IMG/VR virus record: IMGVR_UViG_3300046525_000096
Location: 1 to 61,841 of that record
From: a virus
Direction: 5' to 3' (one strand)
Length of the DNA stretch: 61,841 nucleotides
Made by a program: the position numbers and the translations under genes. The stretch's first letter is position 1, and each line of letters starts with the position of its first letter. The notes beneath the pieces were generated by a model. The model did no database searches. It had not been told where the DNA came from and worked only from the letters and a program-made list of their open reading frames with translations. Of the stretch, positions 17,517 through 25,255 are shown piece by piece.

Positions 17517-18563
17517 TCAGGCGGCAGGCAGCATCGCCGCGGGGTTGAGGCGCGGACGGGCTGCGAAGTGGCCGTCGGGGCTGAGGTCGATACCGACGTA
17601 ATCCAGGCCTGCCTCCGCGGCAGCGACTCCGGTGGTGCCCGTGCCTGAGAACGGGTCGAGCACGCGGCCCGGACGCCAGGCGTTGTGTCCGCAGTCCGTC
17701 CAGCCGGTCGTCACGCGGGGCGCCATGGTGAACTCGCGGAAGTAGCCGCCGAGCACGGCCTTGGCCTCGGCCGCGAGCGCCTGCACACCTGCGGAGTTTC
17801 GGCCGGTCCCGGTCTGGATCGCGAGAGCCTTCCCGGCGTCGGAGATCCCGGTGGCCTGGATCGCCGCGATGTGAGCCGCGGTCAGGCCAGCGTCTGCGGC
17901 GAGCTGCATTGCGCGGCGGGCCTGCGGCCGGGTCTCATCCAGCTGGTGGCCGCGGCCGAGGATGCGCTCCTGGCGGGCGCCGCACTGGGTGCAGACGCTG
18001 GTGGGGCAGCCGAGGAGAATGGCTCGGCGGGCCAGTTCGGTGGGGAACGGGGCAAGGTGGGCATGTAGCCCGCGCTCGGGTTCGATGCGCCACACGTCGC
18101 CCGGGTTGGCGCCGCGGCCGTATCGCTCGGCGTAGCCGGTGAGGTCGTAGTGGTAGCGGCGGCGGGTCAGGTGCAGGACGTACTCGTGGCGCGAGGCGAG
18201 GCGGTCGCGGACGGGGTCGGGCATGCCGCGGGTCTTGGCCCAGACGACGCGGTTGCGGACGAGCCAGCCGGCCGTGATCGCGGCGGCTTCGAGGAGGGCA
18301 GGGATGCCTGCAAGGGAGCGCCGGTGCCACGTGTCCCCGACGTTGAGGAACACGCTGCCGGTCGGGGTGAGGACGCGCTGCCATTCGGTGAGGCAGTCCA
18401 TGAGCGCGGTCACGTAGTTAGCGGGGGTGGACTCCTGTCCAAGCTGGCCCGCCACGCCGTAGTCGCGCTTCTTCCAGTATGGCGGAGAGGTGACGACGAG
18501 ATCGACGGACCGGACAGCAAGGGGTAGGTGCCTGGCGTCAGCAACGGCGAGGGTGCTGGTCAT
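17517..18563 (-). CDS. Orphan SPPY-type DNA methyltransferase
   Basis: From ATG 18563, with an AGGAAGG site, the 348-residue protein has motif IV TSPPYW at residues 25-30 and motif I DPFSGTGTTG near 305. That order (IV before I) defines beta-class N4-cytosine or N6-adenine methyltransferases. An internal CTQCGARQE knuckle lies near residue 180, and the middle region would recognise the target. No restriction enzyme is adjacent, so it likely protects phage DNA from host restriction or marks it. Base specificity cannot be read from the sequence. Confidence 0.88.
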   Translation of the reverse strand: MTSTLAVADARHLPLAVRSVDLVVTSPPYWKKRDYGVAGQLGQESTPANYVTALMDCLTEWQRVLTPTGSVFLNVGDTWHRRSLAGIPALLEAAAITAGWLVRNRVVWAKTRGMPDPVRDRLASRHEYVLHLTRRRYHYDLTGYAERYGRGANPGDVWRIEPERGLHAHLAPFPTELARRAILLGCPTSVCTQCGARQERILGRGHQLDETRPQARRAMQLAADAGLTAAHIAAIQATGISDAGKALAIQTGTGRNSAGVQALAAEAKAVLGGYFREFTMAPRVTTGWTDCGHNAWRPGRVLDPFSGTGTTGVAAAEAGLDYVGIDLSPDGHFAARPRLNPAAMLPAA

Positions 18564-18766
18564 CGGATGGCCTTCCTGGGTTGGCGGGATGCCTGTCGGC
18601 GGGCGGGGATCTGCTGCTGCCAGTCGGTGCCGTTGAGTGCGGCTTCGAGGTCGGCGCGGTGGCGGATCTTTTCGGCGCCGGTCCAACGGGGGCGGCGAGG
18701 GTTCTGGAGGGCGGCGGCGAGGTCGGCCTGCCAGCGGGCCTGCTGCTCGGCCGTCGAGGCGGTCAC
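18560..18766 (-). CDS. Small basic helical protein
   Basis: The 68-residue protein (MTASTAEQQARWQADLAAAL..) is two helices with a basic C-terminus. Four-base overlaps on both sides show co-translation with the methyltransferase. Possible accessory factor; no family known. Confidence 0.58.
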   Translation of the reverse strand: MTASTAEQQARWQADLAAALQNPRRPRWTGAEKIRHRADLEAALNGTDWQQQIPARRQASRQPRKAIR

Positions 18767-18993
18767 CGGTCGGCCTCGGCGACGTACTGGTAGCCGTTGC
18801 GGGTCGGACGGAAGCGGTCGAGGCGGATTCGGGTCCGTCGGCCGGATTGGAGCAATGCGTGATCGCGACCGATGACCGGCTCGACAAGAGCGTGCGTGCC
18901 GTCAATCTCCGCGATGCGGATGCGACGGCCGTAGCTCCGTTCGTCGTTGTGCTGCCAGATCTGGCCGACGGCCGGGGTCGGACTCCCGGTCAT
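18763..18993 (-). CDS. Small beta-barrel-like protein
   Basis: The 76-residue product has the pattern VGQIWQHNDERSYGRRIRIAEID..ALVEPV..RRTRIRLDRF, resembling a small SH3-like or KOW-like barrel found repeatedly in Streptomyces phage early genes. Four-base overlaps on both sides. Function unknown. Confidence 0.6.
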   Translation of the reverse strand: MTGSPTPAVGQIWQHNDERSYGRRIRIAEIDGTHALVEPVIGRDHALLQSGRRTRIRLDRFRPTRNGYQYVAEADR

Positions 18994-19546: not shown

Positions 19547-19818
19547 GGGTTCACCTCAAGACATTCGGTGTCGGGCGGACGCCAGCCGGCATCCAGGAGC
19601 CGGGCAACGATCCGGCGAGCCGTCTCCTCGGGGGTGCCTTCGCCGAACCCGGGGAAGGCGGCAGGGTTCTGGGCGCGGCCCTTCTGGACGGCGAGGACTG
19701 CGCTGACATGTGCGGTGATCCACTGCGTGGCTACGTCGATCCCGTTCTGGCCATGTGCGTAGCCAATGCGGGCGATGGCGCAGTCGACGGCGGCCATACG
19801 GGGGTCGTCGGCCTTCAT
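19543..19818 (-). CDS. Small helical protein, unknown
   Basis: The 91-residue product has two helices (AAVDCAIARIGYAHGQNG, VATQWITAHVSAVLAVQKG) and a conserved-looking GWRPPD end. It overlaps the DnaC-like gene by four bases and may act with it, but I see no known domain. Confidence 0.58.
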   Translation of the reverse strand: MKADDPRMAAVDCAIARIGYAHGQNGIDVATQWITAHVSAVLAVQKGRAQNPAAFPGFGEGTPEETARRIVARLLDAGWRPPDTECLEVNP

Positions 19819-20549
19819 GCGGCACCTCGCCGACTGGGGCCGTCCATGCCGATGACGGTGGTCATCTGCCGGAGCCGGTCGGTGATCCGGGCGCCGAGGG
19901 TCGTCGTGAGGTCGGGCCCCTGCCGGACGCCCTCGTCGTTGCGGGAGTCCGCCTCAAGGTTGCTGGTGATGATCGTCGGGAGGGATTCGTTGTAGCGCTC
20001 GTTGAGCAGCCGGTACGTCGCCTCCTCGGTGAACTCGGTGATCTTCTCGGTGCCGAGGTCATCAATCAGCAGGAGTGGGATCCGCTTGAGCCGCTTCACC
20101 TCGTACTCGGTGCCGCGCTCGCTGCCGCCGGGCCGCATCAGGGCGTACATGTCGGGGGCGGTAACAGCCACGAACTCGTACTTCTCGGGTCCGCAGTCGG
20201 CGATCAGGCGGAGCGCGCCGTAGGCCTCGTGGGTCTTGCCAGTGCCGAACGGGCCAGTGATGAGGAGGAAGCCGGCGGTCCGGGGGTCGGTGGCGACGCG
20301 CTGGGCCCACTGACGGACGCTGGGGTGACCGCACGTGGCGTCCTGGTAGCGGTAGGGGGTTGCAGCCTGCCAGCGCTTCAGCGCCCATTCGGCGCGGCGG
20401 CGGCGGTGGTATTCGGGGTGGCCGGGTTCGCTGGAGTCATCGACCGGCAGCGGGTCGACTCCGATGAGGCCGCGCGCTTCGAGAACGGCGGCGAGCTTGC
20501 GGGCGATGCGTTCGGCGCCCTGCTCGCCGAAGGTCATTGGCTCGGTCAT
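19815..20549 (-). CDS. DnaC/IstB-like helicase-loader ATPase
   Basis: From ATG 20549 the 244-residue product has Walker A ITGPFGTGKTH (about residues 97-107), Walker B LLLIDDLG (160-166) and a sensor-1 TSN in PTIITSNL. This is the AAA+ helicase-loader type that puts the host replicative helicase on the phage origin. It overlaps the initiator gene by four bases (ATGA), the usual pairing of origin-binding protein and loader. A cysteine near residue 73 replaces any longer zinc domain. Confidence 0.87.
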   Translation of the reverse strand: MTEPMTFGEQGAERIARKLAAVLEARGLIGVDPLPVDDSSEPGHPEYHRRRRAEWALKRWQAATPYRYQDATCGHPSVRQWAQRVATDPRTAGFLLITGPFGTGKTHEAYGALRLIADCGPEKYEFVAVTAPDMYALMRPGGSERGTEYEVKRLKRIPLLLIDDLGTEKITEFTEEATYRLLNERYNESLPTIITSNLEADSRNDEGVRQGPDLTTTLGARITDRLRQMTTVIGMDGPSRRGAA

Positions 20550-21424
20550 GATCCGAATCCCTTGTGGTAGTTGGCCTTCGGGTTGGGCTGGAAGGGCTGG
20601 TGCTTCTGGCCGTCGCGGACAACATGGAGGTTGGGCTGGCCAGCGGGAGCCTCGGGGTACTCGTCGTGGTAGCGCTCGAGGCGGAGCCAGTTCGCGGGGT
20701 AGCTCGTGTACTGGGGGTCCTTGCCAGCGACGGAGCGGGCGTAGGCCTGGGCGGCGTCGACGATGCGCTTCGGATCGGCGCCCTTGCGGATCTCTGCGAT
20801 CCACTGTTCCTGGGCCTTGCCCCTGTTGATCTTCTTCGGATAGGTCAGCCAGAACGCACCGAAGGCTTCGAGGAAGTCATCAGCCCGCGAAGAAGAATCT
20901 TCTTCTTGAGGGGAGTGAGGGGCTGAGGGGAAGGGGTCCGGGGTTTCCGGACCCAATCCATGTGGTTCCCGGACCCTATCGGGGTCGTTCCCGGACCCTT
21001 TCTCGGAGTTAGGGTCCGGGTTCTCCGGACCCTTTTTCTCGGTTTGGGTCCGGGGATCCCGGACGCTATCTCCGTCATTGGGTCCGAGGTTTCCGGACCC
21101 TGTGGGCTCGTTAGGGTCCGAGGTTTCCGGACCCTGTGCGGGCGCCATGACCGGGATCCTGTACACCGCACGGCTTCCCCGGCGCCCCGCGCTGACGGTC
21201 TCGAGGGCCTTTTTCAGGCGCAGCGCCTTCATGACCTCGTACCGGCTGGACCGGGCCGGGAGGCGCATGCGCTGAGCGATGGTTGGGTCATCCTCGATGC
21301 CCGGCCAGCACTCCCGGGTGCCATCGTTGGCGTTCTCCGCGAGGACGCTCAGGGCGTACCGCTCGCGCCAAGTCAGGTCGGCTGGCGCGTAGTCCAGCAC
21401 CTCGACGAACAGGCGGATTCCCAC
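20546..21424 (-). CDS. Phage-type replication initiator (origin within gene)
   Basis: The 292-residue protein has an N-terminal winged helix (about 15-75, ERYALSVLAENAND.., TIAQRMRLPARSSRYEVMKAL). A low-complexity middle (about 95-165) full of GPETSDPN/GSGNLGPN-like units is followed by a C-terminal helical domain (FGAFWLTYPKKINRGKAQEQW..SYPANWLRLERY) like that of DnaD/O-type initiators. The middle is the protein reading of a DNA iteron array, so initiator and origin are nested as in lambda O. It is coupled to the DnaC-like gene. Confidence 0.85.
   Translation of the reverse strand: MGIRLFVEVLDYAPADLTWRERYALSVLAENANDGTRECWPGIEDDPTIAQRMRLPARSSRYEVMKALRLKKALETVSAGRRGSRAVYRIPVMAPAQGPETSDPNEPTGSGNLGPNDGDSVRDPRTQTEKKGPENPDPNSEKGSGNDPDRVREPHGLGPETPDPFPSAPHSPQEEDSSSRADDFLEAFGAFWLTYPKKINRGKAQEQWIAEIRKGADPKRIVDAAQAYARSVAGKDPQYTSYPANWLRLERYHDEYPEAPAGQPNLHVVRDGQKHQPFQPNPKANYHKGFGS
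20934..21134. repeat. Iteron array, likely replication origin
   Basis: Five 21-bp palindromic units of the form GGGTCCG-N7-CGGACCC start at 20934, 21012, 21046, 21080 and 21114 (one has CGGACGC). Two weaker half-units have CGGACCC at 20970 and 20992. Right half-sites are spaced 22, 22, 34, 34, 34 and 34 bp. Because 34 is not a multiple of three, the units are read in different frames in the protein, so the DNA rather than the peptide is conserved. An AT-rich run (AAGAAGAATCTTCTTCTT) lies just outside at about 20890-20907 and could be the melting site. Confidence 0.85.
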
Positions 21425-21465: not shown

Positions 21466-22299
21466 CTAGGCCGCGGCGGGTCGGCGGCGGTCGCGGACGT
21501 GCCCTTCGAGGACTTCCTGGGCGATCTGCCGGACGTAGGAGAGGCTGGCGCCGGTGCGCTCCTGGACGGCCCGGACGGATTCGCCGCTGAGGAGCAGGTG
21601 CCTGGCCTCATCGCGCTTCTTCGAACGCGACTCCGGCTCTGACGCGGCTTCCTCGGGCCTGGTGGCGGGGTCGTCGATGTCGCCCTCCCAGTCGATCGGG
21701 CTGTGCCATCCGAGGCGCTTGGCCCGGGCCCGGGCAACCGCGCTGGGGCCGGACTGCCAAGCCAACTGCGCGTAGGCGAGGCGGATCGGCTGGGCGATCG
21801 AGCCGCTGACTGTCTTCCAGTGGCCGTTCGCGACGAGGCTGACCGTCTGTTCCGGGAGTCCGGAGACACTCGCAATGGAGCGGGCTCCGTGGCCGATGGC
21901 GTACAGGGCCTGCACGCGGCGGGTCGTGCCGATTGCCGGCCGGTTTGCGGTGTCGTTGAAGTCGGCCGCCTTGACGCTCTTGAGCTGGCGAGCGACGTTC
22001 CGGTGGGCGAACTTGCCGCGGCGGCGGTGAATCTTGGCCACGGATGCGGGTGCGACCCCGGCGCGGACTGCGATGAGCGCGTAGGACATGCCCGACGCCA
22101 CCAGCTCGTCGACGTGCTCCGCTACCGGGCCGATGGGTACGGACGGCGGGTTGTCAGAGGCGCGCTCGACGTCCCGTACCTTGCATGCCCGTGCATGGAA
22201 GGCGACGCATCGCGTGCATCGGCAGGGTTCCCACGACTTGTCCTTCGGTCCTGCGTAGCGGTAGAGCGTTCCGTGAGCCGGGAGCTTCTTCGCGGTCAC
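21466..22299 (-). CDS. Multi-HTH DNA-binding protein
   Basis: The 277-residue protein opens with a CRCTRC knuckle. It has three HTH-like segments: GMSYALIAVRAGVAPASVAKIHRR (about 70), GARSIASVSGLPEQTVSLVANG (about 138) and GESVRAVQERTGASLSYVRQIAQ (about 243). It looks like a protein that scans DNA by repeated small domains, common in actinophage early regions, perhaps an early transcription regulator. It lies just upstream of the initiator. Confidence 0.7.
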   Translation of the reverse strand: MTAKKLPAHGTLYRYAGPKDKSWEPCRCTRCVAFHARACKVRDVERASDNPPSVPIGPVAEHVDELVASGMSYALIAVRAGVAPASVAKIHRRRGKFAHRNVARQLKSVKAADFNDTANRPAIGTTRRVQALYAIGHGARSIASVSGLPEQTVSLVANGHWKTVSGSIAQPIRLAYAQLAWQSGPSAVARARAKRLGWHSPIDWEGDIDDPATRPEEAASEPESRSKKRDEARHLLLSGESVRAVQERTGASLSYVRQIAQEVLEGHVRDRRRPAAA

Positions 22300-23539: not shown

Positions 23540-24154
23540 TTACGGGACGGGTCGCGCGCAGGCCTCGCACAAGGCGTCCGGGCCGGAGCCGGTGAATGGG
23601 CCGTCGGTGTCCTGGCAGCGGGAGCATCGGATCGGCTCCGCCGTCAGCTCCGGTAGAGCAACCCCGGCCAGCTGGCCGTTCCGCCAGGCCGCCATCACCG
23701 CGTCGCGGCCCGTCTTGCCGAACGCCACCCGGTGGCCGCGCGCTCGAGCCGGGGCGATGGCCACGCCGGGTACGTCGTGGATGACGCCCGTCTCCGGGTC
23801 CGGCCACCCCGTCCCACCGACCGCGGTCAGCTCGGCGAGGAGCTTCTTCTCGAACGCGGGCCGGACGCTGGTCACGAACTGCCGCTCGATCTCGGCGGCG
23901 TGGTGCTCGAGAACCCAGGCCTTGAAGGCGTCGGGATCGGTGACGCGGGCCTCGGCGCTGCCGGAGGTGAGGCTGGTCTTCGCGACCTCGGTCCCATCCG
24001 GGAGCATGATCGCGATCTGCCGGGTGCCGGTCTCGGCGGCGGCCTGGTCGAGGAGCTTCTGCACCTCGTCACGCTTCGCCTTGTACGCCACCTCGATGAC
24101 GTCGAGGAGGGTGCGAAGGTAGGCCTCCTGGGCGGCGGCGTCCTTGAGGCTCAT
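23540..24154 (-). CDS. RecT-partner protein with C-terminal zinc ribbon
   Basis: The 204-residue product has an N-terminal helix bundle (AYLRTLLDVIEVAYKAKRDEVQKLLDQA), a central alpha/beta part and a C-terminal CSRC..CEAC ribbon. Its ATG overlaps the RecT stop by four bases. Proteins at this position in actinophages are conserved and are probably recombination accessories; a nuclease motif is not visible. Confidence 0.62.
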   Translation of the reverse strand: MSLKDAAAQEAYLRTLLDVIEVAYKAKRDEVQKLLDQAAAETGTRQIAIMLPDGTEVAKTSLTSGSAEARVTDPDAFKAWVLEHHAAEIERQFVTSVRPAFEKKLLAELTAVGGTGWPDPETGVIHDVPGVAIAPARARGHRVAFGKTGRDAVMAAWRNGQLAGVALPELTAEPIRCSRCQDTDGPFTGSGPDALCEACARPVP

Positions 24155-25224
24155 GCCGCCACCCCGCCGAGGAGCTGGGTCATCTCGGTGAGCTGCTGCA
24201 GTCCGGCGTCGGCGATGGCGATGCCGTAGGACCGCTGGAACTCCTCGTCGAGGTTGTCCAGGCCCGCCTTGGCGGCGGTCGCGCGGAGCCGCTGCTCGAC
24301 CGCGGCGATGGGGTCGTCCACGATCTCGGCCTCAACGACGTCCTCGGCCGGGGCCGGTGCCGGCGCGGTGGCCTTCGCTTTGCCCACATCGGCGATCTGC
24401 GCGAGGTACTCGGGGCGGGCGCCCTCGGACTGGGCGTCCTTCCAGATCAGGCGGACGGTGGCTGCGTCGGGGGCCTTGTGCGCCTCGTGCAGGTAGTCAC
24501 GGCCAGCGGGCGTCAGGGAGTCGGGCGGCAGGTCGGCGACGGCCGCCTGTACGGTCGCGGCGGGGGTGGCCCACTGGTCAGGTTCGCCCGTCTTGACCCG
24601 GTGGAGCTGGGTGACCTCCGCCTCCATCGGCAGGCCGTCCGCGTCGACCCTGGCGCCGATCTCCTCCGGCGTGTAGATGGCGCCGTGCAGCACCTCAGGG
24701 CAAGACACGCGGACGCACTCGGCGATGGCTCGGGCTCGGAGCATGGCCCGCGGGTACTTCTCCCAGCTCTGCTTCTCGCCCTTGCTGCTGCGGGAGTAGG
24801 GGCGATTGTTGCGGATCTCGCACAGGCCTGCGGTGACGGCGTCGTCGAGTGTCCACTCGATTCGGTTCTCGAATTCGGGGTCATCGCTCCGCCAGATGCT
24901 GACGACGCACGACTCATTGGTCGGGGTGATGCGGACCTTGTGGCCGGCTTCGCGGGCCCGGGACAGCATGAGGTCTGCGGACTGAGTCGGCTTCCCCTTG
25001 ATCACGTGGATAGTCGTGATGGTGGTGACCACGTCGAGTCCGAGGGCTCGGCCGTACTCCAGGGCCCAGAGGACGGAGGCGGGCCGGTTGCGGTAGGCGT
25101 CGGGGAGGAGGGGTGTGTCGGCGAGGGACTCGCAGAACAGCCAGGCTTCGCGAGGGGTCATGGTCCCCAGGGAGAGGGCTCCACCTGCGGGATTCGGATG
25201 GGCTTTGACCAGTTCGGTACTCAT
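24151..25224 (-). CDS. recT: RecT-family single-strand annealing protein
   Basis: From ATG 25224, with GAGGA, the 357-residue protein has the RecT core. The family-typical segments are ALEYGRALGLDVVTTITTIHVIKGKPTQSADLML (about 55-90), WTLDDAVTAGLC and WEKYPRAMLRARAIAECVR (about 155-175). The C-terminal third is an Ala/Pro-rich linker and a helical domain. RecT anneals homologous single strands and promotes phage recombination. No RecE-type exonuclease is adjacent, so it may use a host enzyme. Confidence 0.88.
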   Translation of the reverse strand: MSTELVKAHPNPAGGALSLGTMTPREAWLFCESLADTPLLPDAYRNRPASVLWALEYGRALGLDVVTTITTIHVIKGKPTQSADLMLSRAREAGHKVRITPTNESCVVSIWRSDDPEFENRIEWTLDDAVTAGLCEIRNNRPYSRSSKGEKQSWEKYPRAMLRARAIAECVRVSCPEVLHGAIYTPEEIGARVDADGLPMEAEVTQLHRVKTGEPDQWATPAATVQAAVADLPPDSLTPAGRDYLHEAHKAPDAATVRLIWKDAQSEGARPEYLAQIADVGKAKATAPAPAPAEDVVEAEIVDDPIAAVEQRLRATAAKAGLDNLDEEFQRSYGIAIADAGLQQLTEMTQLLGGVAA

Positions 25225-25255
25225 CGTGATCCTCATCGAGGGTGTGCGGTGCCGT

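Follow-up and report, generated by a model that had tools for sequence, protein, structure and literature searches.

Iterons nested in the replication initiator gene of a Streptomyces phage appear to be exchanged together with the domain presumed to read them

The window (the whole stretch of DNA analyzed here, a 61.8-kb phage record of IMG/VR that contains genes for terminase, portal, tape measure and tail fibre) appears to come from a Streptomyces phage whose replication start lies inside the gene of the protein that recognizes this start. The PHROG 270 profile match of that protein, the putative initiator (Table 1), covers residues 15–263, i.e. most of its length. A Pfam scan at E values up to 0.1 returned no family, the lambda O profile included, and a search by sequence for homologues of solved structure found none. 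AlphaFold2 modelling revealed a confidently predicted, winged-helix-like N-terminal domain (residues 1–90), relatives of which match HTH_36, a disordered linker (residues about 100–180) rich in Pro, Gly and Asp, and a helical C-terminal domain of moderate confidence. The next gene downstream overlaps the initiator gene by 4 nt (ATGA) and encodes a DnaC/DnaI-like protein, in agreement with the initial annotation of this DNA, which had described a coupled DnaC-like gene. Other neighbours are a RecT-like gene (24151–25236) and a DNA methyltransferase gene (17517–18905). The gene 5′ of the initiator gene (21466–22299) encodes an HTH protein that belongs to PHROG 1590, a group of unknown function (E 1.3e-38), and weakly matches repressors and homeodomain-like HTHs.

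Table 1. Features of the initiator locus (positions in the window)
Feature	Position	Strand	Remarks
DnaC/DnaI/IstB-like helicase-loader ATPase gene	19815..20549	-	phrog_50 E 9.1e-31; IstB_IS21 E 1.2e-9; DnaI and similar NCBIfam models
Replication initiator gene	20546..21424	-	292 aa, GTG start; PHROG 270 replication initiation protein E 1.8e-27
C-terminal domain, residues 184-254	20663..20875	-	phrog_10293 E 2.2e-16; common to initiators with different iteron words
AT-elevated tract, candidate unwinding element and module-boundary zone (GAAGAAGATTCTTCTTC tract)	20873..20933	-	directly behind array
Array, seven GGGTCCG sites within linker-coding region	20934..21134	-	
Site 7, full palindrome	20934..20954	-	codon phase 2
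Site 6, left half only	20956..20976	-	codon phase 1; next site 22 bp away
Site 5, left half only	20978..20998	-	codon phase 0; next site 22 bp away
Site 4, full palindrome	21012..21032	-	codon phase 2
Site 3, palindrome with one mismatch	21046..21066	-	codon phase 1; coding-strand left arm GCGTCCG
Site 2, full palindrome	21080..21100	-	codon phase 0
Site 1, full palindrome	21114..21134	-	codon phase 2
Winged-helix N-terminal domain, residues 1-90, presumed array reader	21155..21424	-	AlphaFold2 pLDDT mostly >90
Conserved stretch just 5′ of initiator start codon	21427..21480	-	54 bp matching L006 at 90.7% identity; N-domain and array of L006 are different

Most of the disordered linker is encoded by the array. 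On the plus strand CGGACCC occurs at 20948, 20970, 20992, 21026, 21094 and 21128, and CGGACGC at 21060; the 21-bp palindrome GGGTCCG-N7-CGGACCC begins at 20934, 21012, 21046 (with the right arm CGGACGC), 21080 and 21114. On the coding strand the seven sites begin at nucleotides 290, 324, 358, 392, 426, 448 and 470 of the gene. The initial annotation had counted seven right half-sites (one of them CGGACGC) at spacings of 22, 22, 34, 34, 34 and 34 bp, with five palindromes, inside the initiator gene, and this count was exact. Its description of the repeats as helically phased did not hold: at 10.5 bp per turn of B-DNA, 22 bp correspond to 2.10 turns and 34 bp to 3.24 turns, so the sites do not lie on one common face.

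Elsewhere in the window no second array of the GGGTCCG word was found, only scattered matches with two or three mismatches, and no turning point of the GC skew was seen at the array. In a scan of 394 Streptomyces genomes the exact palindrome-plus-half-site pattern was clustered in only two (G001 and G051), both of which carry a homologous gene, and three further genomes contained one isolated match apiece. Since the pattern clusters only at the homologous gene, host operators were rejected as candidates.

Behind the array, the segment 20888–20926 has the largest AT excess of the gene over the expectation from codon usage (z 5.6), owing to use of the less common codons TCT, GAA and GAT. The highest AT fraction of any 40-bp segment within the 110 bp behind the array averaged 0.497 in 92 relatives, whereas the N-domain averaged 0.400 and the C-domain 0.415; the tract, at only about 50% AT, is milder than that of lambda. 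Short direct repeats of CCCCTCA, 8–9 bp apart, are present behind the array of the window (20903–20933, coding strand). In relatives of two N-domain types (e.g. L039, L027 and L054) the motif CTACTA was observed behind the array, in 17 of 55 tracts of one type and 10 of 13 of the other, and in none of the control segments; on the other strand it reads TAGTAG, which is reminiscent of the DnaA-trio.

Judged from these sequences, the array is very probably an origin of the lambda O/pSK41 kind, situated in the linker-coding region of the initiator gene and recognized by the initiator itself. It could instead be an operator or silencing array through which the same protein regulates its own operon or organizes the region, with replication starting elsewhere; winged-helix N-domains do resemble transcription regulators, and operators are typically palindromic. 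We consider this improbable, given that the array begins 290 nt inside the gene and not at a promoter, that the protein belongs to a replication-initiator family and adjoins a helicase-loader gene, and that the AT-elevated tract lies behind the array.

The array was further examined at the level of codons. From site 1 to site 7 the codon phase rotates (2, 0, 1, 2, 0, 1, 2), because 34 and 22 both leave a remainder of 1 on division by three, and the one DNA word is read in three frames to give GPETSDP, GSGNLGPN and SVRDPRTQ in turn. When the peptide was held fixed and recoded synonymously 200,000 times with the codon usage of the phage itself, the maximum was eight half-sites (11 observed) and two exact palindromes (four observed); in 3,000 recodings the commonest 8-mer reached at most five copies (nine observed). 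The failure of recoding to reach the observed repeats indicates that they are a feature of the DNA, and both tests agree with the earlier claim that repeats lying in different frames reflect selection on DNA. The initial annotation had also suggested comparing homologues for conserved spacing with changed peptide; in the GGGTCCG class the DNA words are retained while the surrounding peptide changes, which is the opposite of peptide repeats kept while DNA repeats are lost. A disordered linker rich in Pro, Gly and Asp, and the location of most sites of the TCAGTGTC class in one frame, might suggest that a low-complexity peptide repeat is what has been selected, the DNA repeat being secondary or due to recent duplication. 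This is hardly credible for a word that specifies different peptides in three frames, is not produced by recoding of the same peptide and has half-sites that survive peptide changes in homologues, and the peptide-repeat reading was rejected on the rotation of the codon phase and the recoding test.

The organization of the array is conserved. Seven sites starting from nucleotide 290, in matching codon phases, were found in eight genes of the same N-domain class (the window, L002, L003, L004, L005, L007, L009 and L023), whereas in the ninth gene of the class (L010) the array is degraded. The order of steps is 34-22-34-34-22-22 except in the window and L007 (34-34-34-34-22-22), which differ from the other six by 12 bp in frame. 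L007, from a prophage of Streptomyces sp. NBC_01214, encodes a protein 92% identical to that of the window over residues 1–280. The right arm is perfect in 23 of 26 sites that precede a 34-bp step and in 0 of 22 that precede a 22-bp step (descriptive counts, as the sites are related by descent), which suggests that the 22-bp steps are half-site steps. In keeping with this rule, site 2 of the window and L007, which is followed by 34 instead of 22 bp, has a perfect right arm. The change from 22- to 34-bp spacing had previously been taken as a sign of two sub-arrays; instead, the spacing separates half-sites from full palindromes, and most homologues alternate between the two. A full site could fold into a 7-bp stem once transcribed, yet mRNA hairpins serving pausing, stability or protection between the two protein domains are most unlikely and were rejected, since none of 111 deviations from the arm consensus is matched by a compensating change in the partner arm, sites 5 and 6 retain a single arm in all eight homologues, and the word follows the type of DNA-binding domain.

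Homologues were gathered from IMG/VR and Streptomyces genomes, including by scans with split N-domain alignments. When the 143 distinct homologous ORFs were scanned without a preset word, 96 proved to contain a significant repeat array. The repeats represent at least seven clear word classes (GGGTCCG, TCAGTGTC, GTCACGCA/GTCACGGA, GGGGTAGC, GGTACGTC, GGGGTCCG/TCCGGACC and GGTGACGT), most of them palindromic, besides the singleton words GGTCCCCC and GGGTCACC. A pairwise comparison of 7-mers, made without class labels and with pair counts and a Fisher test that ignore relatedness, revealed a common high-copy 7-mer in 378 of 379 pairs having N-domains at least 55% identical and unrelated C-domains, versus 5 of 276 pairs having C-domains at least 55% identical and unrelated N-domains; the exceptions listed among these five concern the GGGGTCCG class, the word of which is similar to GGGTCCG. 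The N-domain tree has a single change of word (branch support 100) and five changes of C-domain class. Along the C-domain tree, in which many forks are unresolved, the label changes 16 times, a count of N-type/word changes in which the labels of the smaller N types were set by N cluster. These comparisons point to the winged-helix N-domain, and not the C-domain, as the part with which the iteron word goes. The co-variation of the word with the N-domain of the same gene makes this initiator the most likely reader, which argues against a partition (centromere-like) or packaging site lying in the gene by chance, a reading that we regard as very doubtful: centromere-like sites are also typically palindromic clusters and the weak fold matches include a pNOB8 centromere-binding protein, but the neighbours scanned include no partition gene.

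A few homologues with similar N-domains have a weak or undetectable array (e.g. L006, of the GGGGTAGC type). In the N4 class (L025, L029 and L081) the N-domain has no detectable similarity to that of the window and the word GGGGTCCG is much like GGGTCCG, a likeness due either to remote homology or to convergence. No close relative was found among cultured phages. A clear palindromic array was absent from the homologues of Bongo, Jinkies, MrSmee, Darolandstone and Raleigh, the repeat in the ToastyFinz homologue did not exceed that of its shuffles, and the Rousseau homologue has a AATCGCAT repeat (5 against 3). The likely initiators of Darolandstone (NC_048072.1) and Raleigh (NC_047795.1) are annotated as “mucin-2” in RefSeq, probably because of the low-complexity linker. 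A homologue of the window's loader follows the initiator gene in 37 of 49 cases with the FGAFW type of C-domain and 18 of 24 with the GIPEA type, and in 0 of 11 TCAGTGTC initiators with the TAQTIVGEW type (L034, L036, L038, L157-L168), so that the choice of a different helicase partner may lie with the C-domain.

Natural chimeras define the ends of the exchanged segment. In L006, which has another N-domain type, DNA homology to the window extends over 54 bp (21480 to 21427), is lost across the N-domain and array, and returns at 20936, within the last base pairs of the array, to continue through the C-domain and loader. In L008 (TCAGTGTC class) homology returns at 20872 (83% identity). L005 is the reverse case: it is homologous from 21439 to 20907, its C-domain is different and its loader is homologous again. 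The three breakpoints near the array end (20936, 20907 and 20872) indicate that the array travels with the N-domain and that the boundary lies in the tract directly behind it; the alignment places the 5′ boundary of the module exchanged in L006 at the conserved stretch just upstream of the start codon. Judging from the sequences of about 90 relatives, the recognition domain appears to be exchanged as one cassette with the DNA repeats that match it. Sequence evidence supports both the identity of the reader of the sites and the end point of the module.

The initial annotation had proposed that the initiator gene contains an origin recognized by its own product. This proposal appears well supported by the comparison, in that the word follows the N-domain, the repeats are of a DNA word, and both an AT tract and a loader gene are present. 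In such an origin the winged-helix N-domain would bind the GGGTCCG words; full palindromes would probably be occupied by dimers, and half-sites 22 bp apart probably by single subunits or through shared contacts. A nucleoprotein complex formed over the seven sites would open the AT-elevated tract, and the C-terminal domain would load the replicative helicase with the co-translated DnaC/DnaI-like protein. The linker peptide would be largely a by-product of the DNA sites, the N-domain and array would form one inherited, exchangeable specificity module, and the C-domain and loader would form the other. We infer binding, stoichiometry, melting, helicase loading and origin activity alike.

An origin nested in an initiator gene is a known principle, a textbook case in lambda and found also in pSK41 and SPP1. 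The lambda origin in gene O consists of inverted-repeat iterons inside the initiator gene next to an AT-rich tract, and the Stx phages P27 and 933W have six iterons, the added ones lengthening the protein linker (PMC5043065, PMC7466680). The window shares with lambda O the inverted-repeat iterons inside the gene, the adjacent AT-rich tract and a downstream gene for a helicase-loading partner. It differs in that its initiator has no match to the lambda O profile, the partner is a DnaC/DnaI-like ATPase and not lambda P, seven sites with 34/22 spacing and half-sites replace the four to six regular iterons of lambda and Stx phages, and the family comprises at least seven word classes.

In modular terms the closest systems are those of pSK41 and pPR9. 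The winged-helix N-domain of the pSK41 Rep protein (RepA_N) reads Rep boxes in the centre of rep, where the origin encodes a linker that is dispensable in the protein, and in the chimeric rep of pPR9 the N-domain (HTH_36, pfam13730) and origin were replaced as a unit while the C-domain stayed (PMC5703833). In the window, likewise, repeats in the linker-coding centre are exchanged with the N-domain. By fold, the window protein is most similar to RepA_N N-domains, although the matches are weak (E about 0.019–0.07, TM about 0.5), and no PF06970 (RepA_N) match was obtained at E up to 10 for the window and four related records. Unlike pSK41 and pPR9, the window system is phage-borne, with its own loader gene and GC-rich palindromes, and the swaps occurred across many lineages, not in one as for pPR9. 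In gene arrangement it resembles SPP1, whose gene 38 encodes an origin-binding protein and contains the oriL repeats, with an unwinding element nearby and the helicase loader gp39 (PMC6316719). SPP1 has a second origin, oriR, elsewhere, whereas no further array of the GGGTCCG word was found in the window.

We found no description of the Streptomyces initiator family in the open-access literature; neither the family nor its spacing rule nor the extent of module exchange appears to have been described. We tentatively propose, on grounds that leave it somewhat short of probable, that Streptomyces phages and prophages may keep a large set of exchangeable origin-specificity cassettes in at least seven word classes. 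Each cassette would comprise a winged-helix domain and its own set of nested iterons, with the conserved sequence 5′ of the start codon and the unwinding tract as its boundaries. Recombination would swap such cassettes onto a common helicase-loading half and thereby allow replicons in one host to avoid cross-recognition, much as plasmids do when they change incompatibility group.

Few natural cases, pPR9 among them, are known in which a recognition domain and its sites have changed jointly. The natural chimeras described here, of which there are tens with their boundaries mapped, constitute a ready test series for how an initiator can take on a new DNA word and retain its helicase-loading half, and the lambda-like design allows modular exchange to be tested directly. 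The chimeras also allow origins to be predicted in many Streptomyces phages that lack annotation, and could supply new compatible replicons for Streptomyces genetics.
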